DNA of 64,000 nucleotides from positions 62,001 to 126,000 of the forward strand of contig NZ_MRYI01000016.1 in NCBI RefSeq assembly GCF_002260525.1, written 5' to 3'. A program made the translations under genes and the position numbers. Positions within the stretch are counted from its first letter, which is position 1. Each line of letters opens with the position of its first letter. The notes below the pieces were generated by a model, which was given only the letters and a program-made list of their open reading frames with translations, was not told the DNA's origin and ran no database searches. The DNA is from Hahella sp. CCB-MM4. GTDB taxonomy: Bacteria > Pseudomonadota > Gammaproteobacteria > Pseudomonadales > Oleiphilaceae. This document shows, in pieces, positions 23,723 to 43,113 of this stretch.

Positions 23723-23904
23723 TCAATTTGGTTGCAGTCGGTTGGCGGCCAACTACACTAATTAAGAAGAGTATTTTCTCATATTGCCCCGCGTGGGGAG
23801 TGTGGGAGTAGGCCTCACGGAAGGAGGCTTGTAGTCGATTATCAGGGAGACTGCAGAATGCCATGGGCGCTATAGCGCAACCACACGGAGAAAGGGATCT
23901 CATT

Positions 23905-24708
23905 GTGGAAGAAACTGACTTGTCTACATTGCTTATTGTTGACGACGAGGAGAATATCCTTCGTTCGCTCAAGCGGTTGTTCCGGCGGGAAGACTATCAG
24001 ATTATTACCGCGACTTCGGGGGCTGAGGCCCTGGAAGTGCTGAATACCACGCCGGTATCCGTCATCCTTTCAGACCAAAGAATGCCCGGCATGACCGGGT
24101 CTGAACTATTTTTGCAGGTCAAAACTCTATATCCACGTACTATCCGGCTCATCATGAGTGGTTATACCGAGCTGGAAAGCATTACCAATGCCATCAATGA
24201 TGGAGCTATCTTCAAGTTCTTACTGAAGCCCTGGGATGACGACAAACTGTTGGGTCACATCCGGGAGGCAATGTCCATTTATCACCTGAAAACCCGTAAT
24301 GAACGTCTTAACCAGCAATTGGCTGAATTGAACCGTAATCTTGAAGAGAAAGTTGAAGAGCAGCATCGGGAATTGCTGGTGAAGATGCGTTCTCTGAGGG
24401 TCTCACAGGAAATTCTGGATCAGATACCGATAGCCGTTTTCGGCGTCTCAGATGAAGGCATCGTGGTTGAGGCCAATTCCATTGCCGACAGTCTGCTGGA
24501 GCCTTTAAAAATTGTCGGAATGCCGCTGGACGGCTCGTTACCCGGCAATATCGTTGAGGCCTATTACAATTTGATGGAGGGGGAGGTGGCAAACTCGATT
24601 TCTGAGTTTGTCACCATGTTCGGGGCCCGGGATTATCGTGTTCTGATGAAACGATTTTCGGGTAACTTCAATATTTCCGGTACTGTCATTGTAGGAATCG
24701 CACTATGA
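23905..24708 (+). CDS. Response regulator: receiver, coiled coil, PAS-like domain
   Basis: 268 residues from GTG 23905, which has AAAGGGA 7 nt upstream; an ATG at 23863 is the other option. The receiver has IVDDEEN, phospho-Asp in ILSDQRMPGMTG and FLLKPW. This is the RpfG-like receiver type shared with three other proteins in the locus. A coiled coil (LNQQLAELNRNLEEKVEEQ) joins it to a PAS-like C-terminal part (IPIAVFGVSDEGIVVEAN). It has no output enzyme, so it probably works through protein contacts. Confidence 0.88.
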   Translation: MEETDLSTLLIVDDEENILRSLKRLFRREDYQIITATSGAEALEVLNTTPVSVILSDQRMPGMTGSELFLQVKTLYPRTIRLIMSGYTELESITNAINDGAIFKFLLKPWDDDKLLGHIREAMSIYHLKTRNERLNQQLAELNRNLEEKVEEQHRELLVKMRSLRVSQEILDQIPIAVFGVSDEGIVVEANSIADSLLEPLKIVGMPLDGSLPGNIVEAYYNLMEGEVANSISEFVTMFGARDYRVLMKRFSGNFNISGTVIVGIAL

Positions 24709-24744
24709 CCATACACCCCGGAAGACTTATGGAAGGTGAAAAAC

Positions 24745-25584
24745 ATGAGTTGGGATATTAAAGAAGTCAAAACCAGACTCTCCGAGCTATCATCTCCGAA
24801 TCCGGAAATTGAAGCAGTCATCCAGATGATGGAGGATGGAGTCAGTGATCTCAAGTTGATTGCCCAGAAGGTGAAGCTTGATCCCATTCTGTCTGCACGC
24901 CTGCTGCATCTGGCGAACAGTTCGTTTTATGGATTTCCCCGAGAGGTCAAGGATGTGGAAATGGCCTGCGTGATTCTTGGAGCCAATACCATTCGAAACC
25001 TGGTTTATACCCTTGTCGTCCTGGCCCGATTCAATAACCCCAAACAGGATAGCCGCCTCGACTACGACAAAATCTGGCTGCATGGCCTGATGACGGCGTC
25101 CATCGCACAAGTGATATACAAGCACCTCAAGCTCGATTTCCAGGTGGGATTTACCTCCGGACTGTTTTACAACCTGGGCATGGTGCTGATGGATTATCTG
25201 TATACGGACCAGCTTCAACATTGCATGAAAGTGGCCGAAGCGGAGCAGCGAAACCTGTTGGAAGTTGAGCGGGCTGCCATGGGAAAAGATCACCAGGAGT
25301 TAACCGGAATTGTGTTGGATATCTGGTCGTTTCCCAAAGCCATTGTCGACAATATTTCCAGCCCCATGGCGGAGGCCGGATTGGAGGGAATGATTGTGAC
25401 TCTGGCGGATGTTTTGACCTCCGGCACTATGGGGCCGCTGGTATCCGGAGTACGCTTGAACAGGGTTGAGGAGTGTGAACTGGAGCCCTGTGGCGTCGAT
25501 CTGGCGGAACTGCCGAATCTGATTATGGCTGCCCAACGGCTATATATGGAACTGGCTGGAGAATTCTTCTCCAGCAATAAGTAA
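24745..25584 (+). CDS. HDOD-domain protein
   Basis: 279 residues. HDOD domains resemble HD hydrolases but lack catalytic residues and act as scaffolds in signalling. The domain runs from about 15 to 215 (LDPILSARLLHLANSSFYGF, VILGANTIRNLVYTLVV, LFYNLGMVLMDYL). GGAAGGTG before the ATG at 24745 favours it over the GTG 9 nt upstream. It sits between a receiver-PAS gene and a kinase gene, 36 and 26 nt away. HDOD proteins often pair with c-di-GMP and receiver proteins, as here. Confidence 0.9.
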   Translation: MSWDIKEVKTRLSELSSPNPEIEAVIQMMEDGVSDLKLIAQKVKLDPILSARLLHLANSSFYGFPREVKDVEMACVILGANTIRNLVYTLVVLARFNNPKQDSRLDYDKIWLHGLMTASIAQVIYKHLKLDFQVGFTSGLFYNLGMVLMDYLYTDQLQHCMKVAEAEQRNLLEVERAAMGKDHQELTGIVLDIWSFPKAIVDNISSPMAEAGLEGMIVTLADVLTSGTMGPLVSGVRLNRVEECELEPCGVDLAELPNLIMAAQRLYMELAGEFFSSNK

Positions 25585-25610
25585 GAGAATTACAGAACCG
25601 GTACCGGAGT

Positions 25611-27470
25611 ATGTTGCTCGAAACTTTTGCCAAATATCTGAAAAGTGGTGAGATCAATATTGAAGCCTTTCTGGATGAATTGTTGAGGGAGCATTCTCAC
25701 TTCAATTTATGTTGGTATTGGGTGGAACCCGGTGGGAATCGGTTGTTGAAGTTACCGGGAAGCTCTTGTGAGTCGTTGGAGTTGGGAGAGCGGGAGATCA
25801 TCGCCCTTGCACATAAAGCAGTGGAAGGTCAATGGGAAAGCTTTGAATATGTCTCGAATAATAGCCCTGGGTGCGGATGGGCTTCAAAAATTGATCTGGG
25901 GGATAACTACTTCAGCAGTATCCTGTTATTCGGCGGTAGCGAATTTACCTTTGAAAGAGAACTGCGGGATAAGCTGACCATTGCCCTGGTGGCGATGGGA
26001 ATGCTCAGCTTCAGCCAGGATCTGCAAAGTCACATAATGGATATGCAGCGGCATATCAGGTTCCAGGCCATATGGGCTGAGGCGCAGGAATGGATCAAAA
26101 ATGTCGACGAAGACAACGACGAATTTTATCTGGAACTCCTGACCCGGGCAGAACTGGTTTCCCAGTCGATTGCTTCGGCAATCAGAATTTGTGTCAGAAG
26201 GGAGGAAACTGTTGGAGGGATTGACAATTCTGGAGTGGATGCCGGTCAACCCGAAGGTCAGGAACAACCTGACCGGTGGCTGGTTCGTAAAACCCAGAAG
26301 GAGTTCATCGAAGCCGTGGCGGATCAGTTGGGGCGGGATTCGGTATTAGCCCCTGCCGAAACCCGCAGATTCAACGACTTCAACGTCAATCCGGTTTCCG
26401 GGGACTACAAACCCGTCAGACATATGGTGGCTTATCCAGTTTTTACGGATAACAAGCAACTCAACTGTGTTCTCTATGTGCTGAAAAACGGAGAGGAGAG
26501 CGGCTACTCCCAGTTGGATGAAATATTGCTCTCCCAGCTGATTACCCAGGTCTACTACGGGTTGGAAAAGAATATCCTGCTGCGAAGACTGGAAAGCCGG
26601 CATCAGGAACTGGACGCGGAGCGCAAGGAGCAGGAAAAGCTCATTCAGAAACTCAAGGACACCACGTCCAAACTGGTCCAATCGGAGAAGCTGGCCTCGA
26701 TTGGGCAGCTCGCTGCCGGGGTCGCACATGAGATCAATAACCCTGTGGGTTATGTGAGTTCCAACATTTCCACGTTGTCGGACTATGTTGATGCCATGTT
26801 TGAGTTGCTGGATGAAATCAAGAAGAGTGTGGAGCATGATGGCGGTGATCCTGATCGCCTGAAGGCCCGCATTGGTGAACTGGAGCACCAGTATGAGGCG
26901 GACTATATCCGCAGCGACGTACAGGATCTCATTGCTGAGTCTAAGGATGGGATTCACCGGGTACGACAAATTATCCAGTCACTGAAGGATTTCTCCCGTC
27001 CCGACACCGGGGAATATACCATCGCTGATCTGCACCGGACGATTGATCAGACACTGAATATTGTGAATAACGAGTTGAAGCACCGGGTAACGGTCATCAA
27101 AGAATATGGCGATATCCCGGAAGTTGAGATGGTGGAATCCCAGATCGGGCAGGTTATTCTCAATCTCCTCGTGAATGCCGGCCATGCCATCGAACAACAA
27201 GGGCAGATCGTTATCAGAACGATAGTGGAAGGAGATCAGGTATGCCTGTCAGTGGAAGACAATGGACAGGGCATACCCAAGGAGAATCTCGAAAAACTGT
27301 TTGACCCGTTTTTTACCACCAAACCTGTCGGTCGCGGCACCGGCCTGGGGTTAGCCCTGTCCTACGGTATCGTGAACAAGCATCAGGGACGCATTGAAGT
27401 CGACAGTACACCGGGGAAGGGAACTACTTTCAAGGTCTACCTGCCAATAGTGCAACCAAAAAAAGGTTAG
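25611..27470 (+). CDS. Cytoplasmic sensor histidine kinase with GAF-like input
   Basis: 619 residues, no membrane helix. The first 330 residues hold a divergent, probably GAF-like sensor region. A coiled coil ([16 protein letters not shown]) precedes HisKA with H box [16 protein letters not shown] and a HATPase ([30 protein letters not shown]). The catalytic core is a clear paralogue of the kinase at 20695. The next gene, a receiver protein, starts 4 nt after the stop, so it is the most likely direct target. Confidence 0.92.
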
Positions 27471-27474
27471 GGTC

Positions 27475-28842
27475 ATGCACCAGATTTCCTCATCATCGAG
27501 CAACCTGGCCTCTGAAGAGGCTGTATTCTCTGCTACTGAGGAAGAAATGGATCAGGTCCTGTTTGTGGATGATGAGCCGAGCATTCTTTCCTCCCTGCAG
27601 AGGCTGTTACGCAAGCAGAACTTCCAATGTCATTTTGCCGCAAGCGGCGATGAGGGGATAAAGGTTCTAGAGCAGAAGCGTATCGATCTGGTGGTTTCCG
27701 ATATGCGGATGCCGGGAATGGATGGGGCTCAGTTTCTGGCCATTGTCCGTGAAAAATGGCCGCAGACGGTGCGCATGCTGTTGACCGGTCATTCGGATAT
27801 TTCAGCCACGATTTCCGCATTGAATGAAGGGGGAATTTACCGCTATATCAGCAAACCCTGGGACGGTGATGAGCTGCTGGAAATCATTGAGGAAGGCCTG
27901 CGCATCAGACGCCTTGAACGGGAAAAGAAACATCTGCTGGAGGTTACCCGCAAGCAGAATGATGAGCTGCAGGAATTTAACCGTAACCTTGAACTCATGG
28001 TGGAAGCCCGTACGGAAGAAGTCAGGCAGACTGCGGACATGCTGGAGCTTTCCTACCAACAGCTCAAGGATAGTTATGACGCTTTTGTCCGGGTGTTCTC
28101 CTCTTTCATATCCAGCAGGGGACTGATCAAAGGACATGCCCAGAGTGTGGCGGACCTTTCCCGCTCCATTGCCCTGGCGATGAAATTGTCAGAACACGAT
28201 GTGAAGCATATTTACTATGCGGGTCTTTTGCATGAACTTGGGAAGCTCAGCCTGTCCGATGAAATTCTGAGTCGGGCAGAGGCGAAATTGACCCGCAAGG
28301 ATATTCCCGAATACGTCCGTTATCCGATCCTGGGAGAAATGGCTCTGATGGCCATTGATGAGCTTGAACCCACAGCTCATCTGATACGCTGCCATGCAGA
28401 ATATATGGATGGCACTGGTTTTCCCAGCAAGTTAAAGGAAGAGGAAATTCCGGTCGGCGCCCGGATTATCCGGGTTGTGAGAGATTTTATCGGCCTGCAA
28501 AGTGGTTTGATGAAAACCGAAACCCTCACCAAGGAGGCGGCTTACGATTACATATCGGCTTCAGCCGGTAAAAAATATGATCCGGTAGTGGTGAAGTGTC
28601 TGGAACCCCTGGTCGCTGAATATTCTCCAGATAAAGTCTTACCCTATGAACGGTTACTACCGTCTACGGCTCTGGAACCTGGCATGACTCTGTCCCGTGA
28701 TCTGATCAACAGTAACGGTATTCTGTTGTTCGCCAAGGGGTATAAACTGACGACTAATATCATTGAAAAGATCATCATGCTGGAGAAAGCCGAGCAACGC
28801 AAAATCAGCGTATATATCCGAAAAATCACATCTGGAGCCTGA
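27475..28842 (+). CDS. Receiver protein with a degenerate HD-GYP domain
   Basis: 455 residues: receiver (IDD-type pocket FVDDE, Asp76 in VVSDMRMPGMDG, YISKPW), coiled coil, HD-GYP domain from about 200. HD-GYP enzymes break down c-di-GMP with a metal centre. Several key residues are changed: HD is HE (HELGK, residue 254), the HHE ligand triad is HAE (307-309), GYP is GFP (315-317), and the usual His-Pro after the lid is Tyr-Pro. The fold is clear, but catalysis is doubtful; a binding or adaptor role is likely. A C-terminal tail of about 75 residues follows. Confidence 0.9.
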   Translation: MHQISSSSSNLASEEAVFSATEEEMDQVLFVDDEPSILSSLQRLLRKQNFQCHFAASGDEGIKVLEQKRIDLVVSDMRMPGMDGAQFLAIVREKWPQTVRMLLTGHSDISATISALNEGGIYRYISKPWDGDELLEIIEEGLRIRRLEREKKHLLEVTRKQNDELQEFNRNLELMVEARTEEVRQTADMLELSYQQLKDSYDAFVRVFSSFISSRGLIKGHAQSVADLSRSIALAMKLSEHDVKHIYYAGLLHELGKLSLSDEILSRAEAKLTRKDIPEYVRYPILGEMALMAIDELEPTAHLIRCHAEYMDGTGFPSKLKEEEIPVGARIIRVVRDFIGLQSGLMKTETLTKEAAYDYISASAGKKYDPVVVKCLEPLVAEYSPDKVLPYERLLPSTALEPGMTLSRDLINSNGILLFAKGYKLTTNIIEKIIMLEKAEQRKISVYIRKITSGA

Positions 28843-28844
28843 GT

Positions 28845-29375
28845 ATGGTTAGGATCGCGATCATTGATGATGAAGAGAACATTCTGAACTCTCTTCGACG
28901 TACATTGCGTAAGCAGGGGTGGGAGGTCCTGACCTTCAGCGATCCGCATACGGCGCTGGCTGAACTGCGATTCAACGAAGTGGACATCATTATCTCAGAT
29001 TATCGTTTACCGGACATGGATGGGGTGGAACTCTTGAACCTGCTGAAGACCGTGGTGCCGGATGCGCTAAGAATTCTATTAAGCGGCCAGGCAGATTTGG
29101 CGGGTGTTATGGGGGCTATTAACCAGGCCGAAGTCTATCGCTTTATATCCAAGCCTTGGAATGACAGCGAGCTGATCATGACGTTGGAAAATGCACTCAA
29201 ATACAATGAGCTGGAAAAGGAAAACCGGCGTCTGGCTGAACTTGTAAGAGACCAGAAAAAAGCGTTGCGCAAGCACCTGGATGAGCTTCAGAGACTGGAG
29301 CGTGTGTCGCCTGGTATTACCCAGGTCCACTGGAACGATGACGGAAGCATTAATCTATTGGATGAGGATTCCTGA
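28845..29375 (+). CDS. Response regulator, single receiver with charged tail
   Basis: 176 residues: a receiver (IIDDEEN, phospho-Asp in IIISDYRLPDMDG, FISKPW) and a helical charged tail (LEKENRRLAELVRDQKKALRK). There is no DNA-binding or enzyme domain. The receiver belongs to the same sister group as those at 23905 and 27475 and the last domain of the 29463 protein. It starts 2 nt after the preceding stop and ends the + strand operon before a hairpin. Confidence 0.92.
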   Translation: MVRIAIIDDEENILNSLRRTLRKQGWEVLTFSDPHTALAELRFNEVDIIISDYRLPDMDGVELLNLLKTVVPDALRILLSGQADLAGVMGAINQAEVYRFISKPWNDSELIMTLENALKYNELEKENRRLAELVRDQKKALRKHLDELQRLERVSPGITQVHWNDDGSINLLDEDS

Positions 29376-29462: not shown

Positions 29463-32400
29463 TTACCCGTTGTTCCCGGATAGTTGGGCCAATTGCTGAC
29501 GTAATTGTTGATTTTCCCTGACCAGGTCGTGTTCACGGAAAGCCTGTTTCATGTTCTCTCTCAGGTGTTCCGGCTCCCAGGGTTTGCAGATAAACCGGAA
29601 TATGGAGCCTTCATTGATAGCGCCCAAAACCGTATTGAGATCGGTGTAACCACTCATGACGATCCTGACCGCCTCCGGGTGAATGTCTTTCACTCGACGC
29701 AGGAACTCCGTTCCGTTCATTTCGCCCATTCGCTGATCTGCCATTACCACTTTTACATCGTGCTTCGCCAGCAATGCAAAGGCATCCGTAGGATTGTCGG
29801 CGGTTAAAATCTGATAAGGCTCATAGCGCAGCTCCCGCTTGATCGAGCGCAGAATGTTGATATCGTCATCGATAACCAGCAAGGTGCGGGATTCCGGTTG
29901 TGCCAGGACGCTCTCCTCGCTGGTGCCCCAGGGCTGGTCTTCAAGAACAAAGTGTTTACAGGCCTCCACCGGCAGAGGAGGTGAGTAAAAATAGCCCTGT
30001 ATCAGGTCACAGCCGGTACGAACCAGAAAGTTGTATTGCTCTGGTGTTTCCACTCCTTCGGCCACAATCTGCATCCCCAATGTTTTACTGAGGGAGATTA
30101 CGGCTTTAACAATGGCGGCACTCTGCGGGTCGGAGGTCACCTGCTCGACAAAACTCTTGTCTATCTTGATCTGGTCAAATGGAAAACGCTTGAGGTAGCC
30201 CAGGGAAGAGTATCCGGTACCGAAATCGTCCATGGAAAGCTTGATGCCCATATCCTTGATCTGTTTCATGGTCTTGATGGCCTGGTCCACGTTGGCCATG
30301 ACCATGCTTTCGGTAATCTCAATTTTCAGGAGACTCGGATCCATGGAGGTTTCTTCAAATATCTGTTTGATCAGAGGAACACAGTTGGCATCCTGAAACT
30401 GCCTGGAAGACAGATTGACGGAGACCGTGATCGGCGGCAGATTCTGTTCGCGCCAGCTGATAGCCTGCTGGCAGGCTGTTCGTAATACCCAGGCATCAAT
30501 TTGCAAAATCAGCCCGGTCTCCTCTGCGATGGGTATAAACTCCAGGGGCGAAATAATCCTGTCATCCCTTTGCCACCGCACCAGAGCTTCCAATCCGGCA
30601 GTACGTCGGCTGGCAGGACTCAGTTGTGGCTGGTAATAAAGCATTAACTCATTCTGCTCTATTCCCTGTCTCAGGAAACGCTCCAGGGACATGCGCTTCT
30701 GGATCGATGCATTCATGTCTTTGGTGAAGCTGCAAATCCGGTTCTTGCCCCGGTTCTTTGCCTGATACATGGCTGTATCTGCATTCTTAAGTAGAGCTGT
30801 CGCATCCTGTCCGTCTGAAGGGTACATGCAGAACCCGATACTGGTGGTGATGACATGTTCCTTGTTGTCCAGAATTTGAGGCTGCGCCACACGCAGCAGA
30901 ATTCGTTGCAACACAGTGGTAATGCTATCAAGATCACTTTCCTCATTCAGGAGCAGGACAAATTCATCTCCTCCCAGTCGGGCCAGGGTATCCGCAGTCC
31001 GGACGCAGGATTTGAAAATGCTGACGATGTTTTTCAGCAGGCGATCACCAATGTCATGACCCAAGGTGTCATTCACCAGTTTGAAGTTATCCAGATCAAT
31101 GACCGCCAGGGCAAAGCCATTCTTGTGCCGGGCGGCATTCGCGATGGCTCTCTGGATTCGATCCATCAGCAGGTTGCGATTCGGCAATCCGGTGACTTCG
31201 TCGTAGTTGGATTTGTATTCCAATTGTTCCTGATAACGCTTGGTTTCGGTGACGTCATTGACCACGCCAACATAATGACTGATATTACCGGCCTGGTCCC
31301 TTACCGGGGCGATCTGCAGATCATTCCAGAACAGGGAACCGTCCTTGCGATAATTGCGAAGCAGGGCGCCGCCCTTATCTCCTGAGTCAATGGCGCGTCT
31401 GATGCTGGCAATGCCGAGTTGATTACGGTCATCATTCTGCAGAAAGCGACAGTTCTTACCCAAGGCTTCTTCTTTTCGATAACCGGTAATACGTTCAAAG
31501 GCGGGATTCACATAGACTATGGGGTTGTCCGGCAAACTTGTATCGGTAATCACAACCGCATTGATACTGGCTTCCACTGCCCGGGTACGCAGAATCAGTT
31601 CCTGCTCCACCTGGCGTTGCATGGATATGTCCTGAAAGACCCCGATGACACCAGACTGTTGCTTGTTGTTATCCAGCAGCGGCACTGCTGAGACTAACAG
31701 TGTTCGGTTCGGCTCCTCGTTCTCAGATCGAACGCCAATAACCTTGTTTAGTGAGGGATGCCCGTCTTCCAGTGTCTCGACCAGGGGCCATTCATCGGGA
31801 ACCAGGGATTTGCCGGTGCTTTCCCACCAGCAGTCCTTATTGGTCAGGGAATGGATCGTTGTGAAGTCATGCCGTTCCCACAAATGCTCCATTTCATTGT
31901 TATAAAGCAATATTTCCCCATTGGACTGTGCAACGCATACACCAACGGGCAGGGTTTCCAGAATCGTACGTAAAAGCGCTTCACTACGCGTAAGCGCATT
32001 TTGCGCAGATTCTTTTTCCTCCATCTCGGCCACTAACGCTGAGGTCCTTTGTTCAACCAGAGCCTCCAGACTGTCATATAAACGAGCCCTGCCCAGTGCG
32101 ACCGAGAACTGGTGACCGATGGAGATCAGAGGTTTCATGGATTCGCTGTCCCAGGGTTCTCCAGTCTCGTTGGTCACATTGAGTATGCCGATGATTTCAT
32201 TGCCGAGCTTCAAAGGAATGGTGGCATGGGCCTGCTGTTCGGATACTCCATCCAGCGCCGGGCAGCCTTGTATATTGATGGCTTCGGATAGTTGGTCGCT
32301 ATGCATCGCGTGGGTGCAGGGGCACTGTGGATGACAGCGTGCAAGAGTATCTTTGTTCACCTGGGGACCCTTGAATCCCATCAATCTCCACGGGTTATTC

Positions 32401-33098
32401 CAGTCAATGTCGTCGGGCATCAAAAGCCATACGGAATCGGCATCGGGGAACTCTTTGACCTGGGACAGGGCTCGTTCAATGATCTCATGTTCATTGGTCG
32501 CGCCGCTTAGATCTGCCGTAAAATGAAACAGACTGTTGATCAGTGTATTGGAACGGGTCAGCTGCTGATGTTTGGACTTTAATTCACGGTTCAGGCGAAT
32601 GCCTTCTTCGTATGTGGAAATCAAAAGGTCGAGAATTTGCTGGCGGGCAGACGTAATAAAATGGCGTTTGCCTCCCAGTATCACTTCTACGCCCATTTTG
32701 ACCCGGTCATGTTCCCGGTGCCGGATATTGGCCATGAAATATTGGATACGGGACATCAGATACTCTTCGTCATAAGGCTTGCGAATGAAGTTATCCGCAC
32801 CGCAGAGCAGCCCTTGTATGACGTCCTGAGGATCCGTTAGCGTGGTGACGAGAATGACCGGAATTGCTTCTGTCTCCGGGTTGTTTTTCAGATGCTTGCA
32901 AAGGGTGTAACCATCCATTTTGGGCATCATGATATCGCTGATAATCAAAGTGGGAGGGTGATCGGACACCAGCTTTAAAGCTTCTTCACCATTACTGGCC
33001 ACCACAACGCTGGCATGATTCTCCTCAAGCAAAGCCTGCAGTTGTAATGCCTGAGTCAGACTATCCTCTACGATCAGGATCTCGGTATTCTTTAACAT
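29463..33098 (-). CDS. Receiver-GAF-PAS-LOV-GGDEF-EAL-receiver hub protein
   Basis: 1211 residues, no membrane helix. Order: receiver (Asp55 in IISDIMMPKMDG), GAF (about 190-340), coiled coil, PAS (about 375-495), LOV-type PAS (about 505-620) with the flavin-binding GKNCRFLQ motif and its Cys550, GGDEF (709-713, inhibitory RxxD at 700-703), EAL (837-839, with DDFGTGYSS and EGVET) and a C-terminal receiver (ADQRMGEMNG, FICKPW). Both c-di-GMP synthesis and breakdown motifs look intact. The gene is the last of the che operon, 26 nt after cheB, where WspR stands in Wsp systems. Phosphate from CheA to either receiver and blue light at the LOV domain are possible inputs. Confidence 0.94.
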   Translation of the reverse strand: MLKNTEILIVEDSLTQALQLQALLEENHASVVVASNGEEALKLVSDHPPTLIISDIMMPKMDGYTLCKHLKNNPETEAIPVILVTTLTDPQDVIQGLLCGADNFIRKPYDEEYLMSRIQYFMANIRHREHDRVKMGVEVILGGKRHFITSARQQILDLLISTYEEGIRLNRELKSKHQQLTRSNTLINSLFHFTADLSGATNEHEIIERALSQVKEFPDADSVWLLMPDDIDWNNPWRLMGFKGPQVNKDTLARCHPQCPCTHAMHSDQLSEAINIQGCPALDGVSEQQAHATIPLKLGNEIIGILNVTNETGEPWDSESMKPLISIGHQFSVALGRARLYDSLEALVEQRTSALVAEMEEKESAQNALTRSEALLRTILETLPVGVCVAQSNGEILLYNNEMEHLWERHDFTTIHSLTNKDCWWESTGKSLVPDEWPLVETLEDGHPSLNKVIGVRSENEEPNRTLLVSAVPLLDNNKQQSGVIGVFQDISMQRQVEQELILRTRAVEASINAVVITDTSLPDNPIVYVNPAFERITGYRKEEALGKNCRFLQNDDRNQLGIASIRRAIDSGDKGGALLRNYRKDGSLFWNDLQIAPVRDQAGNISHYVGVVNDVTETKRYQEQLEYKSNYDEVTGLPNRNLLMDRIQRAIANAARHKNGFALAVIDLDNFKLVNDTLGHDIGDRLLKNIVSIFKSCVRTADTLARLGGDEFVLLLNEESDLDSITTVLQRILLRVAQPQILDNKEHVITTSIGFCMYPSDGQDATALLKNADTAMYQAKNRGKNRICSFTKDMNASIQKRMSLERFLRQGIEQNELMLYYQPQLSPASRRTAGLEALVRWQRDDRIISPLEFIPIAEETGLILQIDAWVLRTACQQAISWREQNLPPITVSVNLSSRQFQDANCVPLIKQIFEETSMDPSLLKIEITESMVMANVDQAIKTMKQIKDMGIKLSMDDFGTGYSSLGYLKRFPFDQIKIDKSFVEQVTSDPQSAAIVKAVISLSKTLGMQIVAEGVETPEQYNFLVRTGCDLIQGYFYSPPLPVEACKHFVLEDQPWGTSEESVLAQPESRTLLVIDDDINILRSIKRELRYEPYQILTADNPTDAFALLAKHDVKVVMADQRMGEMNGTEFLRRVKDIHPEAVRIVMSGYTDLNTVLGAINEGSIFRFICKPWEPEHLRENMKQAFREHDLVRENQQLRQQLAQLSGNNG

Positions 33099-33124
33099 AA
33101 CTCCTCCCTACCGTTGATCGCGTA

Positions 33125-34150
33125 TTACCTGCAAGAGGCAAACACCCTGTTAATAATTTCGGCAAGCTTTTGTGGCGGTGCCACTTGCGAGACAGCGCCA
33201 AGTCGGACCGCTTCTCCGGGCATACCGTTGACCACGGCAGTTGCCTCGTCCTGCGCCAGGGTTAGTGCGCCGATGGAATGCAGTTGAGACATTTCCTGCG
33301 CGCCGTCCTGCCCCATGCCGGAGAGTAAAACGGCCACTGTACGATGCTTGAAATGCTTCGCCACGCTCTCGAACAGGTGCCCTATCGACGGTCGGTTGTG
33401 ACGCAGCGGCGGGCCGTTTGACAAGCGAATATGGCCGTCACTGTCTATTTCCATATGACAATTATCCGGTGCCAGATAAACATGGCCGGGTTCGGCCAGT
33501 CTTCCGAATTCACCAATCTGAACTGGAAAACCGGTGGTATTTGCCAGCCATTCACAAAAACTGCTCAGAAAACCCTGTGAAATATGTTGTACGACCAGAA
33601 TGGGAACCGGGACCGGCGGAGTCAGATGCATCAACAGTAACTTGAGCGCTACCGGGCCTCCTGTTGAAGCCCCGATCACAATGATTTCCGGTTTCTGTCG
33701 ACTCAGCAGGTTGGGGGTAGCCTTTATCAATGGTTGCCTGGGCGTTCTGCGTATCAGTTTGATATCGCTGATGACCCGTATGGTACTGATCAGTGCTGCC
33801 GCATCCTTTTCAAAGTTCGGATGCCCGGGGCCCTGTGGTTTTTGGAGCACGGTGATGGCTCCGGCTTCGAGAACCTTCATGGCCAAAGCTGTATCGTGAT
33901 AGCTGTAGCTGGCAGTCACGACGACAATGGGTATAGGTTGGTTTTCCATGATCAGGCAAGATGCTTCGCAGCCATCCATTTCCGGCATATCAATATCCAT
34001 GGTGATGACATTGGGGTGGAAAAGCATCGCCATTTCCACCGCCTGATGCCCATTCTCAGCCTCTCCGACAACCGTCATCCCGGCTGCTTCAATGATATGC
34101 CGTAATAGTTCCCGGACGACGGATGAATCATCCACGATGAGTACCTTCAT
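33125..34150 (-). CDS. cheB: Chemotaxis-type protein-glutamate methylesterase
   Basis: Removes methyl groups from receptor glutamates when phosphorylated. 341 residues: receiver (VDDSS, Asp52 in ITMDIDMPEMDG, LQKPQG), linker, esterase domain with catalytic Ser in IGASTGGP, His in VVQHIS and Asp in GMGQDGAQ. It matches the WspF position in a Wsp-like order. The 121-nt gap to cheA holds a tandem repeat. Confidence 0.95.
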   Translation of the reverse strand: MKVLIVDDSSVVRELLRHIIEAAGMTVVGEAENGHQAVEMAMLFHPNVITMDIDMPEMDGCEASCLIMENQPIPIVVVTASYSYHDTALAMKVLEAGAITVLQKPQGPGHPNFEKDAAALISTIRVISDIKLIRRTPRQPLIKATPNLLSRQKPEIIVIGASTGGPVALKLLLMHLTPPVPVPILVVQHISQGFLSSFCEWLANTTGFPVQIGEFGRLAEPGHVYLAPDNCHMEIDSDGHIRLSNGPPLRHNRPSIGHLFESVAKHFKHRTVAVLLSGMGQDGAQEMSQLHSIGALTLAQDEATAVVNGMPGEAVRLGAVSQVAPPQKLAEIINRVFASCR

Positions 34151-34201
34151 AGAGTGACCTCTGGTCGATTCCTTTTCCCGCTCACGGTCATATCCTCGCT
34201 A

Positions 34202-34289
34202 TTTTCTAAAACAGTTGCCTGATGTATCTACAACCGTTATCCGACGAAACTGCAACAATTGTCCGGCGTTTCTACAGCAGCTGTCTGAT
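34202..34289. repeat. 22-bp tandem repeat, four copies, across the cheA stop codon
   Basis: Units at 34202-34223, 34224-34245, 34246-34267 and 34268-34289 each match a common 22-bp consensus at 17-20 positions (core CTACAACAGTTGTC). The last unit carries the final codons and stop of cheA on the - strand (IRQLL-stop); the other three fill most of the gap to cheB. Confidence 0.9.
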
Positions 34290-36536
34290 GGTATTGAGCA
34301 GGTTCACCTGGTCAAAACTGCTTTTTACGATATACGCGTTAGCGCCCACATCGAGTCCGCGTTCCTGGTCTTCCGGACTTTGCAGAGCGGTGACCAGAAC
34401 CACAGGCAGGCTGGATAATGATCGATACCTGCGGACTTTGTCGGTGAGCGTGAATCCATCCATATGGGGCATTTCGATATCCGAGACCAGCAGGTCAAAA
34501 TCGGATTGTCTTAACATGCTCCAGGCTTCCATCCCATCATTGGCTGTCGTCACCTCGTACCCTGCGTTTTCAAGAATGGTTTTCAGCAGGCCTCGCGAGG
34601 TGATGGAATCCTCTGCCACCAGGATCTTTGATCGTTGTCCGGGGGCTTCCTCTGAGTACATTGTTATGGAGGAGTGGGCTGTGGCACAGGCCGTTTGATA
34701 TAAATCCTGGGGATTGAGTACAGGTATGACCCTGCCGTCCCCTAGTTGTGTGGCGCCCAGAATATTGGGAACGCGGATCAGTTGTGGCCCCAGTGATTTC
34801 AGGATGATTTCTGTGTCATCAATGATTTCGTCCACCTGCAGACAGAAGTCTTTGCCGGCGGCGTAGAGTTGCACGGTCTGCAACCTGGTGCCTGAAATTC
34901 TTCTTTCCGTTTCGCCGTCCAGCTGCAGTATTTCGGCAAGCCTCCAGACAGGAAGCACTCTGTCGGCGACGGTGACGGTCATCCTGTTTTCAATGGTTCT
35001 GACTGACTCCAGCGGTAAACGCATCGCTCGAATAACCGCTTGTGCCGGAATCGCCATGATGAATTCATCCACCTTGACCAATAGGGCACGGAAAGTCGCC
35101 ATACTTACCGGTAAGCGCATGCTGAAGGATGTTCCCTGGCCGGGAGTGCTCTCCAGCTGCACCTGTCCGCCGATCTGTTCAATATTGTCACGAACAATGG
35201 CCAGACCCAGTCCGCGCCCCGAAATGTCAGTAATCATGGAACTGGTGGATAATCCCGAATTGAATATCTGGTGATAAATTTCCTGATCGCTCAGGTCTGA
35301 AGCATCCTCTTCATTGAGAATTTTCTGTTCGACGGCTTTGTTCCTGATCTTATCCGCATTCAGTCCCCGTCCATCGTCACTGATGGTGATCACAAATCTG
35401 GATGCGTCATCCTGGGAAAAATCAATCGACAATATTCCTGCGGCCGATTTACCTGCGACCAGTCTTTCAGATGGAGGCTCAATGCCATGATCAATTGCAT
35501 TCCGGATCAGATGCTGCAATGGAATCTTCAGTTCATCCAGAATACGTTTGTCCACCGTCAGCGAATCCCCTTCAACTGTCAGGTTAATCTGCTTGCCCGA
35601 TGCCTGGGCAATCTCCTTGGCCATGACTGGAATACCTTCCAGCAGAACATTGCAGGGGAGCAGCAAGACATTCTGCATTTCCAGATGCAGAGCTTCACTG
35701 GCCGTGGCAATGTTCCTGGCAACCTGTTCAGCATTTCGGGCCAGTATGCTCAGGCGATATTCCCATTGCCCAAGGTAGTCAATGACCCAATCGCTGAATT
35801 CCAGAAGCGTTTGCTGCTCGTCGGGGATTGCCTGTTTTAAATGCTCTGACTGCTGCCTGATCTGACGACAGGCAATCGCAATGTTGTGACGATGTCTGTG
35901 CCACTCAGTGAAATTATTGGCGGCCTCTTCTGCATGGGAGTGTGTTTGGACCGCTTCAAGTTTGGATTGTTGGAGGTCTTCAATATGAAACAGCAGAGTG
36001 TCCAGGCTTGTAACGTCTACCTTCAAGCGCCGCTTGGAGTTGACCGGACCAATGGGGGGCAATGGTGAAGTCGAGTCCTCCAATACCTGAGCGGAATCTG
36101 ACGCGGCTTCTTCTTGTGGAAACGTTGCGCTGGCGTCCGGTTCGCCTGTTGCCAGGCTGTCCGACTCCAGTTGGATGCAAAGCATTGGTAAAGAGTCCGG
36201 CGCTTTGGCATCCGGATGTTTGATCAAGTGATGCAACATTTTTTCGGCTTGTCTGCATAGCTCCAGGTGCTGCTGATTAAACTCCTGTTGGTTTTTCCTG
36301 ATCCGGGCAAACAGGCTTTCCCAGGCCTGACACAGGATTTCCACGTCTCCCAGTGCGACAGCGCGGGAAGCTCCTTTGAGACTGTGAATCTCACGATAAA
36401 CGGTTTCCAGCAATGCCGGGTCGACAGGTGGGGTTGCCATTGCAAGACGATCGGCCAGGTTACCAAGGCGCTCCCCTGCCTCCGCAGTAAAAGCGACCAG
36501 CAGGCGTTTGCGAAGACTTTCGTTATACTTTCCCAT
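34272..36536 (-). CDS. cheA: Hybrid CheA-type histidine kinase with C-terminal receiver
   Basis: 754 residues: HPt domain with His51 (REIHSLKGASRAV), a long linker, helical dimer region, HATPase (HLIRNAIDHGIEPP, DDGRGLN, GRGLGLAIVRD), CheW-like domain and a receiver (VAEDS, LLVSDIEMPHMDG). The CheA-receiver fusion is the WspE/FrzE layout. It autophosphorylates within a receptor-CheW array and should pass phosphate to its own receiver, CheB and the hub protein. It lies between two cheW/cheR genes and cheB in one operon. Confidence 0.95.
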   Translation of the reverse strand: MGKYNESLRKRLLVAFTAEAGERLGNLADRLAMATPPVDPALLETVYREIHSLKGASRAVALGDVEILCQAWESLFARIRKNQQEFNQQHLELCRQAEKMLHHLIKHPDAKAPDSLPMLCIQLESDSLATGEPDASATFPQEEAASDSAQVLEDSTSPLPPIGPVNSKRRLKVDVTSLDTLLFHIEDLQQSKLEAVQTHSHAEEAANNFTEWHRHRHNIAIACRQIRQQSEHLKQAIPDEQQTLLEFSDWVIDYLGQWEYRLSILARNAEQVARNIATASEALHLEMQNVLLLPCNVLLEGIPVMAKEIAQASGKQINLTVEGDSLTVDKRILDELKIPLQHLIRNAIDHGIEPPSERLVAGKSAAGILSIDFSQDDASRFVITISDDGRGLNADKIRNKAVEQKILNEEDASDLSDQEIYHQIFNSGLSTSSMITDISGRGLGLAIVRDNIEQIGGQVQLESTPGQGTSFSMRLPVSMATFRALLVKVDEFIMAIPAQAVIRAMRLPLESVRTIENRMTVTVADRVLPVWRLAEILQLDGETERRISGTRLQTVQLYAAGKDFCLQVDEIIDDTEIILKSLGPQLIRVPNILGATQLGDGRVIPVLNPQDLYQTACATAHSSITMYSEEAPGQRSKILVAEDSITSRGLLKTILENAGYEVTTANDGMEAWSMLRQSDFDLLVSDIEMPHMDGFTLTDKVRRYRSLSSLPVVLVTALQSPEDQERGLDVGANAYIVKSSFDQVNLLNTIRQLL

Positions 36537-36609
36537 AGCTGAGACCGATAATCATTGGTGTTACACGTTGGCTTAATCAATATTGAGAATTTTTGCCATA
36601 CAACCTTCC

Positions 36610-37215
36610 TCAACCCAGTGCGTTCACAATCAATTTTGGGTCGGCCAGTAGTCTGGCCGCATCAAGAACGGCATATTGCGACGACGTTATGCCGTAAAGG
36701 TAGTCACTTTGGGGGCCGCCCAGATATTCCGGCGTCGGTAAAATGTCGTTCTCGTATATGGCGTGCATGCCGATAACCTGGTCTGTGAGCAGTCCGAATT
36801 CCATGGTTTCCTCTGCAATGATCAGCAGGCTGTTACGGTCGGTGAGGCCTTTTTGGGGAAGTTTGAACAACACCCTCAGGTCGACGATGGAAACCATTCT
36901 GCCCATGTAACTGACCACGCCCATAATATGAGACGGCGTGCAGGGAATCGGGGCAATCTGCCTGGCGGGTATTACCGTAACCACGTATTCCGGGGGGACG
37001 GCGTATACCTCTCCTGCAATCAGGAATAAAAGCCAATCTTTGCTGGTTCGCTCCTGAAGATCTTCCTGCACGGTGGCGAGCGTTTTGGCACGCTCTTTTA
37101 AGAGCCGGTTTGTCATTTCCGGCGACGGGCTGAACTCTTCGCTAAGCACGTGTTGGCTATGCCTCAGCTGCTGCTTGAGAGCTTCCCAGTCAATGGCCCC
37201 GGAGACTGATGACAT
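36610..37215 (-). CDS. cheW: CheW-type coupling protein (longer form)
   Basis: Links receptors to CheA. 201 residues, longer than classical CheW because of about 60 N-terminal helical residues before the CheW fold (LLFLIAGEVYAVPPEYVVTVIP, GVVSYMGRMVSIVDLRVLF). The extended form matches WspD. It starts 2 nt before the end of cheR in the same operon. Confidence 0.92.
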   Translation of the reverse strand: MSSVSGAIDWEALKQQLRHSQHVLSEEFSPSPEMTNRLLKERAKTLATVQEDLQERTSKDWLLFLIAGEVYAVPPEYVVTVIPARQIAPIPCTPSHIMGVVSYMGRMVSIVDLRVLFKLPQKGLTDRNSLLIIAEETMEFGLLTDQVIGMHAIYENDILPTPEYLGGPQSDYLYGITSSQYAVLDAARLLADPKLIVNALG

Positions 37216-37217
37216 GT

Positions 37218-38924
37218 CTAAAGCTCCCTTAACGTTTCAGCAATCAATGTATTCAGGTCACTGACTGTCAGTCCGTCACCCTCCGGGATTGGTGCTTCAG
37301 GAGACCATTGCAGCAAAAGTTCCCGGCAATTTCTAAGATGCTTTTTGGCTTCTTTCGGCTGCTGCAACCTCAGGTTCAGAAGTCCTGTGAAATAATGGGC
37401 AAGAATAAAATCAGGCTGTAAATAGAGCATATTGCCCAACCATTTGAGGGCTCTGTGTGGTTGTTCTCTTTCAATGTCGACTGTCGCTAGAATCCAATAG
37501 GGGGCCGGCTCCAGACGGTTCAATTCAATGACTGCCCGTGCCCACTCTTCAGCTTGCAGCAGTTGATTCAAATTGGCGTGACAGCGTGCATTCAGTAATC
37601 CGCATTGAATCCGTTGTCCCGGGCTGAGAGAATGTGGTGGCCGGTTTTTGATAATCTCCAGGCAATCTGCGTAGGCGCCCTCTACGAACAGCCTGTTGGC
37701 TTCGACTATAAAATCGGTTCCAGGTGATTCAAGAGGATGACTGATGTCCGGTTCCGCAGAGTGTTGCGTGTCGGGCGACCAGCGCTCTTCCTGAGAATTT
37801 TCTCGAGCCTGCTCAGCCAAATCAGAAAAGCCGGATAAACCAGAAGACTCGGGGAAGCCAGAGGAGTCAGGAAAGCCAGAAGAGTCAGAAACGTGAGATG
37901 AGTCAGAAAAGTGAAGAGAATGAGGAGTATTCGATAAGTGGGCAGGTTCAGCCTCAAACCCCTGTATTTCTCCGGAAGAGGATGTCCAGGCACTGTCATC
38001 CGGAGGCAGGGGCATTGCTTGGTAAAGGTCGAAGGGCGTTTGCTTTAAGACGACGGAACTCGGCCAGTGATCCAATGCCACTCCCGCATTCTGGCATATC
38101 AGGCTTTCAGCGGCAGAAAGCAACAGAACGCCATTTCCAGACAGACGTTTCAACAGATTCAGCAAAGTATTGCTGGCCTGCTCAGTACTGAAATACATGA
38201 GGACATTGCGGCACAGAATAGCGTCAAACTCTGCATCTGTTGGCGCCAATACATCAGGTTTTCCGGAGCGTTCTACATCAATCAGGTTGAATTGACTGAA
38301 CTGAACCCACCGAGTGAACTCGGGTTTTATCTTCCAATGTCGTTTGCCGGTCAATGGCGTGAAATATCTGTTTCGCCAACTGGGGTTGGTCTGTCTGAAA
38401 GACCAGGAGCTGTATTCTCCCCGTTGGCCCTTAGACAGGGACTTGGCATCAATATCGGTTGCGAGTATCCGAATATCCCATTGATCGGCATCGGGAATGA
38501 GTTGATGTAACAGGAAAGCCAATGTATAGGCTTCCTCTCCACTGCAACACCCGGCACTCCAGAACCTTAGTCGTCTCCTGCCTTGCTGACGTCGCTCGGC
38601 AACGAGCTCCGGTAGAAAGTTTGAACCAAAGTGCAGCCAGAATTCAGGGTCCCGAAAAAAATAGGTTTCGCCGATGGTTAATTCCTGGGAAAGGTGATGG
38701 AGGATGTGGGGGGAAGGATGTTTTTTCAACAATTCCCGAATGAGTTGGCTGTCATTTTCACAACCTGCGCTCATGGCGGCCTGGCTCAGATGGCATCTGA
38801 GTTCACTCCATCTGTCCAAGGGAAAGTGGAGTCCCCACAAAGACTCAATCTTCTGCTGAATCAGCTTCTGTTTGACTCTGGAAACTTCTGATTTCCTGTG
38901 TCCACTAGTGGTCAGGCATGGCAT
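37218..38924 (-). CDS. cheR: CheR methyltransferase with C-terminal TPR-like repeats
   Basis: Methylates receptor glutamates with S-adenosylmethionine. From ATG 38924, which has AGGGA just upstream and overlaps the cheW end by 20 nt, it has 568 residues; ATG 38945 is possible. Motifs: TIGETYFFRDPEFW, FWSAGCCSGEEAYTLA for the cofactor, ILATDID, ILCRNVLMYF. A Ser-rich linker (about 330-385) with FxDSSGF-type repeats leads to a helical C-terminal part that looks like TPRs (EWARAVIELNRLEP, ALKWLGNMLYLQPD). CheR-TPR is the WspC layout. Confidence 0.93.
   Translation of the reverse strand: MPCLTTSGHRKSEVSRVKQKLIQQKIESLWGLHFPLDRWSELRCHLSQAAMSAGCENDSQLIRELLKKHPSPHILHHLSQELTIGETYFFRDPEFWLHFGSNFLPELVAERRQQGRRRLRFWSAGCCSGEEAYTLAFLLHQLIPDADQWDIRILATDIDAKSLSKGQRGEYSSWSFRQTNPSWRNRYFTPLTGKRHWKIKPEFTRWVQFSQFNLIDVERSGKPDVLAPTDAEFDAILCRNVLMYFSTEQASNTLLNLLKRLSGNGVLLLSAAESLICQNAGVALDHWPSSVVLKQTPFDLYQAMPLPPDDSAWTSSSGEIQGFEAEPAHLSNTPHSLHFSDSSHVSDSSGFPDSSGFPESSGLSGFSDLAEQARENSQEERWSPDTQHSAEPDISHPLESPGTDFIVEANRLFVEGAYADCLEIIKNRPPHSLSPGQRIQCGLLNARCHANLNQLLQAEEWARAVIELNRLEPAPYWILATVDIEREQPHRALKWLGNMLYLQPDFILAHYFTGLLNLRLQQPKEAKKHLRNCRELLLQWSPEAPIPEGDGLTVSDLNTLIAETLREL
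37795..37925 (-). repeat. Short imperfect repeats in the CheR linker
   Basis: A stretch rich in GACTC/GAGTC-type triplet runs encodes repeated SGFPDSS / SGFPESS / SDSSHVSDSS units. Lengths vary but the frame is kept. It lies exactly between the methyltransferase and TPR-like parts. Confidence 0.6.
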
Positions 38925-39369
38925 CCCTAAGCTCCTTTTGCTCATTCAGATTCAGCAAAGCAGAGACATCATGAATCAGTAATATGCCATCGGGTAACGA
39001 AGCAATGCCTTTTAGCATGGCAGAAGGAGATGGCAGAATTCCGTTAGCGATGGATTCTGATACCGTTGTACAGAACACATCGTCAACGCTGTCTACCAGA
39101 AGAAGCAAATCAAGCCTTGTGCAGGAAGCCCATATGAGACGGTCTTCAATATGTGGCGGGCGGGGCGGGAGGCCGAATTTTTGGCGTAAGTCTACCACTG
39201 GCAGGAGTTTTCCCTGCACATTGATGACCCCGCAAATAGCATGCGGTGCCTGTGGTATAGGACAAATCGCAACAGTCCGTAGTACCTTCCTGATACTGTC
39301 CAGCTCAATTGCATAGCTTTGCTCATCGAGACTAAAGCGCAGCAGTTGAACTTCCGTGACTTCCTGCAT
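38905..39369 (-). CDS. cheW: CheW-type coupling protein (short form)
   Basis: 154 residues, the classical CheW size and fold (LLRFSLDEQSYAIELDSIRKVL, GVINVQGKLLPVVDLRQKFGLP, LLLLVDSVDDVF). It is the first gene of the operon, so the promoter lies in the roughly 160 nt upstream, which shows no clear motif. It corresponds to WspB. Confidence 0.93.
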   Translation of the reverse strand: MQEVTEVQLLRFSLDEQSYAIELDSIRKVLRTVAICPIPQAPHAICGVINVQGKLLPVVDLRQKFGLPPRPPHIEDRLIWASCTRLDLLLLVDSVDDVFCTTVSESIANGILPSPSAMLKGIASLPDGILLIHDVSALLNLNEQKELRDAMPDH

Positions 39370-42441: not shown

Positions 42442-42448
42442 ATGCACG
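42402..42448 (+). repeat. Duplicated initiation region of flgP
   Basis: A 22-nt segment at 42402-42423 is repeated in a 25-nt form at 42424-42448. Both run from TTCCATAA through AAAGG to AAATGCACG, so ribosome site and start codon are doubled. The first copy would start a frame of only four codons (M-H-V-P-stop); the second starts flgP. Confidence 0.85.
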
Positions 42449-43113
42449 TGACGATTTCAAAAACCTCTGACCGTAACCATGATTTCCGTCTCAGTCCGGG
42501 GATTGGCTGGTTGGCGCTGGTGGCTGTTTCAGTCGTTCTGGCAGCCTGTCAGGCCCCTGTTCAGAACCAGAATGCCAATGGGCAACAGTCTGCCATGCAG
42601 GACTACGATCCGATCGTGATCCGGGTGTCCGGGTATGGTACCTATGAAGACCCCAAGCATGCGTCGTCTCAACGCATGAGATTGCTGGCAATGCGAGCGT
42701 CCAAACTCGATGCCTATCGGGCATTGGCGGAGCGAATCTATGGCACTGTGATCTATGGTTCTTCATCTGTCCAGGCACTGGTGCTGCAGCATGATGAATT
42801 CAAAACCATGGTGGACAGTGTGATCCGGGGAGCTCGGGTCATGAGTATTTCAGAAATGAAGGGCGGTGGTTTTGAAACAGTCCTGGAAGTGGTTCTGGAG
42901 CCCAGGTTCCGACAGTGTCTTACCAATGTGAACTACTTCCGCTATACAGAAGAATGCCGCATGCCGTTGCCTCACGGTGATCCGGAAATCCATGCCAGCA
43001 TGGAGGCCCCTGCCACTGGAACCAGCAGTATGTACTACATCGGTAGTCAGCCTGAAAATAAAAATGGCAGCCAGTCTGGCAATAGTGAAAGCGGCGAGAC
43101 CATGAAGGAATGA
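42442..43113 (+). CDS. flgP: FlgP-like outer-membrane lipoprotein
   Basis: Flagellar basal-body accessory lipoprotein of the LPP20/FlgP type, which with FlgT helps form the outer-membrane H-ring of polar flagella in Vibrio. 223 residues with a lipoprotein signal (LALVAVSVVLAAC) after a polar lead. The conserved part includes IRVSGYGTYEDP, LAMRASKLDAYRALAERIYG and VLEVVLEPRF. The C-terminal tail is polar and Asn/Ser-rich. The stop overlaps the flgT start (ATGA), so translation is coupled. flgO, usual in Vibrio, is not here. Confidence 0.88.
   Translation: MHVTISKTSDRNHDFRLSPGIGWLALVAVSVVLAACQAPVQNQNANGQQSAMQDYDPIVIRVSGYGTYEDPKHASSQRMRLLAMRASKLDAYRALAERIYGTVIYGSSSVQALVLQHDEFKTMVDSVIRGARVMSISEMKGGGFETVLEVVLEPRFRQCLTNVNYFRYTEECRMPLPHGDPEIHASMEAPATGTSSMYYIGSQPENKNGSQSGNSESGETMKE

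Follow-up and report, generated by a model that had tools for sequence, protein, structure and literature searches.

How does a chemosensory operon that holds no receptor gene receive its signal, and to which family of pathways does it belong? These questions are raised by a stretch of DNA of 64,000 nucleotides from Hahella sp. CCB-MM4 (contig NZ_MRYI01000016.1, positions 62,001 to 126,000), hereafter the window, in which six minus-strand genes encode two CheW proteins, the methyltransferase CheR, the kinase CheA, the methylesterase CheB and, last, a multidomain protein with both a GGDEF and an EAL domain that we call the hub. A first-pass annotation of the window had read these genes as a Wsp-like operon without a receptor. 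On the sequence evidence gathered here, we consider it likely that they belong to a chemosensory pathway of the alternative cellular functions (ACF) type, the receptor of which, a methyl-accepting chemotaxis protein (MCP), is now encoded in trans.

The operon itself is as first described. Open reading frames (ORFs) matched all six genes at the positions originally assigned to them (Table 1), and Pfam bore out a 1211-residue output protein with two receivers (REC1 and REC2), PAS, GGDEF and EAL domains. The GAF domain claimed for the hub is a weak match (PF01590, 23.7 bits with a cut-off of 22.4; PF13185 fell below its own cut-off), and the claimed LOV domain was recognized by similarity to the YtvA family and to solved LOV domains (best E 4.7e-37), bearing the motif GKNCRFLQ. 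The CheR gene overlaps that of CheW1 by 41 bp and encodes a C-terminal region resembling tetratricopeptide repeats (TPR), with sub-threshold matches only (ANAPC3, 22.1 bits with a cut-off of 27.2; a TPR model, 19.8 bits), which is recognizable in the CheR proteins of relatives' operons too. Hub operons of the same gene order occur in 24 sampled genomes of two families, so the arrangement is not due to chance; this is a real chemosensory operon ending in an enzyme predicted to make and to break cyclic di-GMP (c-di-GMP).

Table 1. Features of the window: the operon, the domains of its hub and the convergent cluster beside it
Feature	Coordinates	Strand	Basis or remark
CheW1 (WspB position), first operon gene	38905..39369	-	ORF; Pfam CheW E 9.5e-27
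CheR methyltransferase, C-terminal TPR-like region	37218..38945	-	Pfam CheR E 4.7e-42
CheW2 (WspD position)	36610..37215	-	Pfam CheW E 8.4e-25
Empty receptor slot, 73 bp	36537..36609	-	MCP at the same place in 19/24 sampled hub operons
CheA: Hpt (His in REIHSLKGASRA), HATPase, CheW, C-terminal REC	34272..36536	-	Pfam, alignment, tree
CheB: REC-methylesterase (REC-CheB_methylest)	33125..34150	-	Pfam, tree
Hub, 1211 aa: REC1-GAF-PAS-LOV-GGDEF-EAL-REC2	29463..33098	-	Pfam, NCBIfam, motif alignment
Hub REC1	32733..33089	-	Receiver-tree half with Che and Wsp receivers
Hub LOV	31233..31589	-	NCRFLQ Cys present; Gln of solved LOV domains replaced by Val
Hub GGDEF	30729..31223	-	GGDEF intact; RxxD (RTAD) I-site intact
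Hub EAL	29973..30683	-	EAL, N, E, DDFGTG, K and EGVE motifs intact
Hub REC2	29529..29888	-	Receiver class common to the NosR/HD-GYP neighbour cluster
Convergent cluster: REC protein, HDOD, histidine kinase, REC-HD-GYP, REC	23863..29375	+	Pfam, NCBIfam

The place that a receptor has vacated is revealed by the relatives. CheA was searched for in three sets: 293 genomes belonging to the order, 398 from another family, which contains Pseudomonas (query, the CheA of genome G061; E<=1e-130), and 151 from the family of the window (E<=1e-90). The neighbourhoods of the matches were annotated by phmmer using domains taken from the window's proteins and MCPs; G000 denotes the window's genome, other G numbers the sampled genomes and L numbers loci. 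Hub operons were present in 17 of the 398 genomes and in 7 of the 151. In 19 of these 24 operons, the genes for CheW2 and CheA are separated by an MCP gene (two in L220), and the slot holds no MCP in five: those of the window, of G682 from the same genus, and of G061, G490 and G376 from the other family. No MCP remnant was seen in the translated gaps of all five empty slots on inspection by eye. Named relatives with both MCP and hub comprise Pseudomonas tumuqii, three Pseudomonas sp. and Stutzerimonas stutzeri NT0128; among these, L098 has two MCPs, the CheW2 of L099 is missing from the annotation and two hubs are identical to sampled ones (L101 to L216, L102 to L229). The first PAS domain is absent from four hubs of the sampled operons, and the CheB of L218 and L219 was not in the ORF selection, probably lying behind an over-extended hub ORF. 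A further CheA match in the window's family, in G691, has a different architecture.

The first-pass annotation held that no receptor gene lies in or beside the operon, and for the operon this is so; for the genome it is not. The only MCP found on the window's contig (window 1161-1664), some 28 kb away, was rejected as the operon's receptor, as it belongs to another MCP class both by BLAST and in a tree of signalling domains. Among the 35 MCP genes of the genome (36 search rows, two of them in one frame), a single one, encoding a 560-aa PAS-PAS-MCP on contig C81, falls within the ACF class. By BLAST it was the best match within this genome for 18 of 19 ACF-type operon MCPs (the exception being L107) and for none of eight MCPs of the Wsp, Halomonas or G008 type. 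For the six MCPs of the named Pseudomonas and Stutzerimonas hub operons it scored 345-365 bits, with the next MCP of the genome at 160-187. In a quick tree of signalling domains, built without two Halomonas-type MCPs, the MCP of L138 and the operon MCP of G710, in which the tip motif is missing, it was the sole MCP of this genome within a 24-row clade of ACF receptors (SH-aLRT 99), nested among the receptors of hub operons. A search for an orphan receptor, as originally proposed, succeeded by sequence class. The length class suggested for that search was rejected as a guide because it cannot single out the orphan: the distance between hairpin tip and C-terminus is 144-149 residues in 29 of the 35 MCPs and in the five WspA proteins, and alignment of the orphan to these is essentially free of gaps.

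The same receptor class accompanies the kinase across genomes. Using the C81 signalling domain as query (E<=1e-45), a class MCP was found in all 26 genomes with the CheA, namely the 24 with a hub operon and the hub-less G748 and G029, and in none of 20 chosen without it (Fisher p 1.8e-13, with kinship among genomes ignored); the contrast has the same direction inside the window's genus and in five other genera (g2, g3, g22, g55 and g72). Each of the five empty-slot genomes has exactly one class MCP at this threshold, on another contig of the draft assembly, and the C81 gene and its G682 counterpart have the same TetR-like-sized neighbour gene. These observations bear on the alternative that receptors of the genome's other arrays, for instance one of the other 34 MCPs, drive the kinase and that the PAS-PAS-MCP is incidental. 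Mixed arrays are conceivable, given the 29 MCPs of similar tip-to-C-terminus length, but both the co-occurrence and the match in sequence class argue against this alternative, which we regard as improbable.

Might the operon instead be decaying, a non-functional remnant left after receptor loss? The slot is indeed empty in both the window and G682, but all six genes are open in each, the two hubs are 80% identical and the hub's catalytic and phospho-acceptor motifs are intact; the three empty-slot operons of the Pseudomonas family likewise retain all six genes. The G682 operon has flanks like those of the window, with thiolase, CCA-adding enzyme, kinase and HD-GYP genes. We regard decay as very improbable.

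Genomes that hold both kinds of receptor indicate the order of gain and loss. In G695, G700, G705 and G710, of the window's genus, an operon MCP and a PAS-PAS receptor are both present; in G705 and G710 the latter is orthologous to the C81 receptor over its full length (62-63% over 545 aa). In the other family, G670 has an operon MCP and a second receptor of the class, 82-83% identical to the sole class receptors of G061, G490 and G376, that of G061 carrying a CHASE3 domain. Such genomes hold both, so in each of two lineages a receptor in trans was present before the receptor in cis was lost; in the CheA trees the empty-slot sets, the window with G682 and G061 with G490 and G376, lie apart. 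The hub operons thus offer a natural case of receptor replacement in which the receptor class is traceable by sequence, the slot marks the loss and relatives hold both receptors.

The receptor in trans differs in build from those of the operons. The C81 receptor has two PAS domains and, in a simple hydropathy scan, no clear transmembrane segment (one marginal window falls in the PAS region); by contrast, two such segments were seen in each of the nine operon receptors in correct frame. From the scan, 3 of 21 class rows (G302 op1 and op2, G295 op) were dropped for wrong frame. Two operon receptors, L102 and L207, were scanned with Pfam, and both have 4HB and HAMP domains. Among the structural chains listed as matches, heme PAS proteins of FixL or DosP/YddU type (YddU being DosP) account for 13 of 15 with PAS1 and 13 of 16 with PAS2, a His occupying the aligned position; this His is presumably the heme ligand. 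The best match of PAS2 is the PAS domain of a multi-sensor kinase, its ligand unstated. A heme role for these domains is only a lead.

If the receptor is encoded in trans, is the pathway nonetheless Wsp, with WspA lost and WspR replaced by a larger output protein? The part list and order (B-C-D-E-F-R) are alike, and the CheR with its TPR-like region and the CheA-REC resemble those reported for Wsp (excerpt of PMC5907407), so that the part-by-part likeness first described holds as gene order; it does not extend to membership. A careful tree was built from 36 CheA P4-P5 regions of the 52 rows in a quick tree, leaving out near-duplicates and the long branches L106, L115, L117, L118 and L211. The hub CheAs and that of the hub-less G748 form their own clade (support 100/99), joined by the CheAs of G029, two betaproteobacterial metagenome-assembled genomes (MAGs) and a Syntrophorhabdus MAG (100/98), and the Wsp CheAs form a separate clade (100/100). 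An exclusive clade of hub and Wsp CheAs was rejected by the approximately unbiased (AU) test (p-AU 6e-5), a result that is partly expected because the group was defined once the quick tree had been seen and, in its strict form, does not include the remaining ACF rows; a clade widened to hold hub, other ACF and Wsp CheAs together was not rejected (p=0.354). In quick trees the hub group also came out for CheB (SH-aLRT 99) and, with weak support, for CheR (86). The phylogenetic comparison of CheA and CheB originally called for gives a hub group for both and, for CheA, a place outside the Wsp clade.

Further features point the same way. Relatives carry their receptor gene between CheW2 and CheA, not first as in the six Wsp operons inspected (L053-L058), and the orphan receptor is unlike WspA. 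With its CheA outside the WspE clade, no WspA as first gene and an output that is not a REC-GGDEF WspR (or WspH), the operon was rejected as a member of Wsp; REC1 of the hub also falls outside the clade of WspR receivers. We therefore regard a true Wsp system as highly improbable and describe the operon, from its sequence relationships, as a cousin of Wsp, not Wsp itself. The hub CheA groups with CheAs of other non-flagellar operons of CheR-TPR-like type. An ACF-like pathway (CheR with TPR-like tail, CheA-REC and multidomain output) that feeds the hub is supported.

The hub has the motifs for both of the opposing activities ascribed to it at the outset. Across an alignment of 26 distinct hubs (28 rows, two of them duplicates; the L098 hub left out), the GGDEF and EAL motifs examined, which hold the catalytic residues, are intact in every row, and the R of the RxxD I-site is missing in 2 of 26. 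Cyclase, I-site and phosphodiesterase motifs being intact in the window, the hub is predicted to make and to break c-di-GMP. The sign of its output is a separate matter, and it is quite possible, if somewhat short of an even chance, that the hub is mainly a phosphodiesterase whose GGDEF domain is a regulatory GTP-binding module, lowering c-di-GMP in the opposite direction to Wsp. This would be compatible with a receptor in trans. The best two NCBIfam models are phosphodiesterases, albeit scoring far below their cut-offs (DibA, 549.6 bits with a cut-off of 980; PRK10060, 444.9 with 782), and all EAL motifs are intact; yet so are the GGDEF and I-site motifs, and cyclase activity has been reported for the LOV-GGDEF fragment of a LOV-GGDEF-EAL protein from Mesorhizobium (excerpt of PMC9098866).

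The composition of the output varies among loci. Another LOV-GGDEF-EAL-REC2 protein adjoins the operon in two Pseudomonas-family genomes (L227:73-2580 and L228:15958-19164), as if the C-terminal half of the hub also existed on its own. The betaproteobacterial loci L103 and L104 have, after CheB, either a REC-GAF hybrid-kinase-like protein with an EAL protein or a REC-GAF-GGDEF-EAL protein; given these different proteins, the output module has seemingly been exchanged.

Which inputs might the hub integrate? The phospho-Asp of REC1 is present in all 26 distinct aligned hubs. Light had been proposed as a possible second input, and the window's LOV domain does possess the photoactive Cys, but the light-sensing residues vary among the hubs. 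The adduct-forming Cys (GxNCRFLQ) is present in 21 of 26 hubs and missing in five, four from the window's genus and one from elsewhere in its family; the position of the Gln is taken by Leu in 23, and by Val, Phe and Met in one each, Gln itself being found in none. The L098 hub has NCRFLQ. Hubs of the window's genus at L207-L210 have NFLFLL in place of NCRFLQ, are shorter (1094 aa) and lack the first PAS. Light input is thus possible but not conserved, and the loss of the Cys suggests a pathway that, in general, can do without light. Natural LOV proteins without the Gln can signal, and the LOV-GGDEF part of one LOV-GGDEF-EAL protein is light-repressed (both from an excerpt of PMC9098866). With at least 26 distinct hubs that vary in light-sensing residues and in REC2 and are constant in the REC1 phospho-Asp, the family provides a setting for testing inputs.

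REC2 suggests a further, non-Che phospho-input that was absent from the first-pass annotation. In a quick tree of these short receiver domains, with long-branch warnings elsewhere in the tree, REC2 belongs to a 19-row clade (support 100) together with receivers from the convergent neighbour cluster and from Massilia proteins encoded next to a related operon, and REC1 falls outside it. The neighbour cluster ends 87 bp from the stop codon of the hub and includes a histidine kinase (25611-27470) and a REC-HD-GYP protein of the NosR family, above the NCBIfam cut-off. The G682 operon (L204) likewise has kinase, REC-HD-GYP and REC genes at its side, and next to the Massilia operon (L117) are REC-HD-GYP and REC genes that share this receiver class. 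As REC2 shares the receiver clade of the neighbour cluster, the kinase is a candidate partner for it. Full-length relatives of the kinase occur in G682 (76%, adjacent) and in four genomes of the same genus (48%, elsewhere), where the REC2 Asp is kept; among the aligned hubs the REC2 phospho-Asp is found in 19 of 26 and its Lys in 16 of 26.

From the operon and its domains, the catalytic motifs, the receptor class and its co-occurrence with CheA, the lost slot and the distinct receiver classes, all read from sequence, we infer array formation, phosphotransfer, the sign of the output and the stimuli as follows. In the proposed ACF-type pathway, the soluble C81 receptor would assemble with CheW1, CheW2 and CheA into an array and would be adapted by CheR and CheB. 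CheA would phosphorylate CheB and REC1 of the hub, and REC1 would shift the balance of GGDEF and EAL activities and, with it, the level of c-di-GMP. REC2, perhaps served by the neighbouring kinase, and the Gln-less LOV domain, responding to blue light or flavin redox, would be modulatory inputs. It is tempting to go further and to picture three inputs (the array through REC1, a NosR-type kinase through REC2, and light or redox through LOV) converging on one cyclase/phosphodiesterase, with the array switched from a membrane-bound receptor to a FixL-like PAS-PAS receptor in the cytosol through loss of the operon receptor after gain in trans, such loss having occurred independently in two lineages; as a whole, this fuller picture is speculative and on balance unlikely.

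Several observations weigh against the pathway as proposed. The partnership between receptor and kinase is deduced from phylogeny and co-occurrence, for which the 20 CheA-less genomes were hand-picked below the search E cut-offs, with some 53 candidates scored in each genome and no correction for relatedness; moreover, the orphan may also join the flagellar array, its hairpin being of similar length. As to the grouping of CheA and CheR with flagellar classes, which the first-pass annotation had named as evidence against a Wsp or ACF affinity, a clade of hub, other ACF and flagellar CheAs is not rejected (p=0.133); the deep split from flagellar CheA is not significant, so that a flagellar grouping is neither borne out nor dismissed at this depth. 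The output is not fixed either, since the G748 operon, which has its MCP, adjoins no hub and G029 has the CheA without a hub. Loss of the REC2 Asp in 7 of 26 hubs and of the LOV Cys in 5 of 26 implies that both domains are dispensable in some members. Finally, G714 has a full-length relative of the kinase (39%) and lacks the operon, and the sampled genomes of the Pseudomonas family have kinase-domain matches only or none, several of them keeping the REC2 Asp and Lys; the idea that an intact REC2 tracks the neighbouring kinase was consequently not borne out, and their pairing is weak.

Two other loci may be recorded. On contig C2 of the window's genome (35892-43009, L092) there is a chemosensory-like locus with CheW domains in frames of 1219 and 228 aa, close to an MCP which, in the signalling-domain tree, falls together with that of the Chp cluster; the CheB search found no CheB on this contig. 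Within the window, 42442-44372 (+) holds two genes that may form a flagellar FlgP/FlgT-type pair.

How, then, does the operon compare with known systems? Like Wsp of Pseudomonas, it has the order CheW-CheR-CheW-CheA(REC)-CheB with a c-di-GMP output protein last; unlike Wsp, it has a distinct CheA clade, a receptor that is not the first gene and is here encoded in trans, and, in place of REC-GGDEF, an output with GGDEF and EAL, LOV, PAS and GAF domains and two receivers. Halomonas chemosensory cluster 2 is likewise a Wsp-like ACF cluster with c-di-GMP output, but differs in gene order, in having its own MCP first and in its Hpt-REC-REC-GGDEF output (excerpt of PMC5907407); operons with Halomonas-like gene order (L048, L049 and L052) fall in a separate CheA clade. 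As in natural Gln-less LOV receptors, in which the Gln is often replaced by a hydrophobic residue (excerpt of PMC9098866), the hub LOV lacks this residue; unlike those studied, it is fused to receivers within a chemosensory operon and is a LOV domain read from sequence. In the CheR-TPR/ACF superfamily, too, CheR (there with TPR) is clustered with a multidomain response regulator, so that the kind is already known; in a survey of CheR-TPR clusters, two cluster regulators have REC fused to GGDEF and EAL, and some have PAS or GAF (excerpt of PMC3447774). LOV, a second receiver class and an empty slot go unmentioned in that excerpt. No publication on the hub operon was found within the open-licence literature searched. 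As far as that search extends, what this operon adds to the known systems is a hub with LOV and two receivers, a receptor slot with parallel loss and a soluble receptor in trans.

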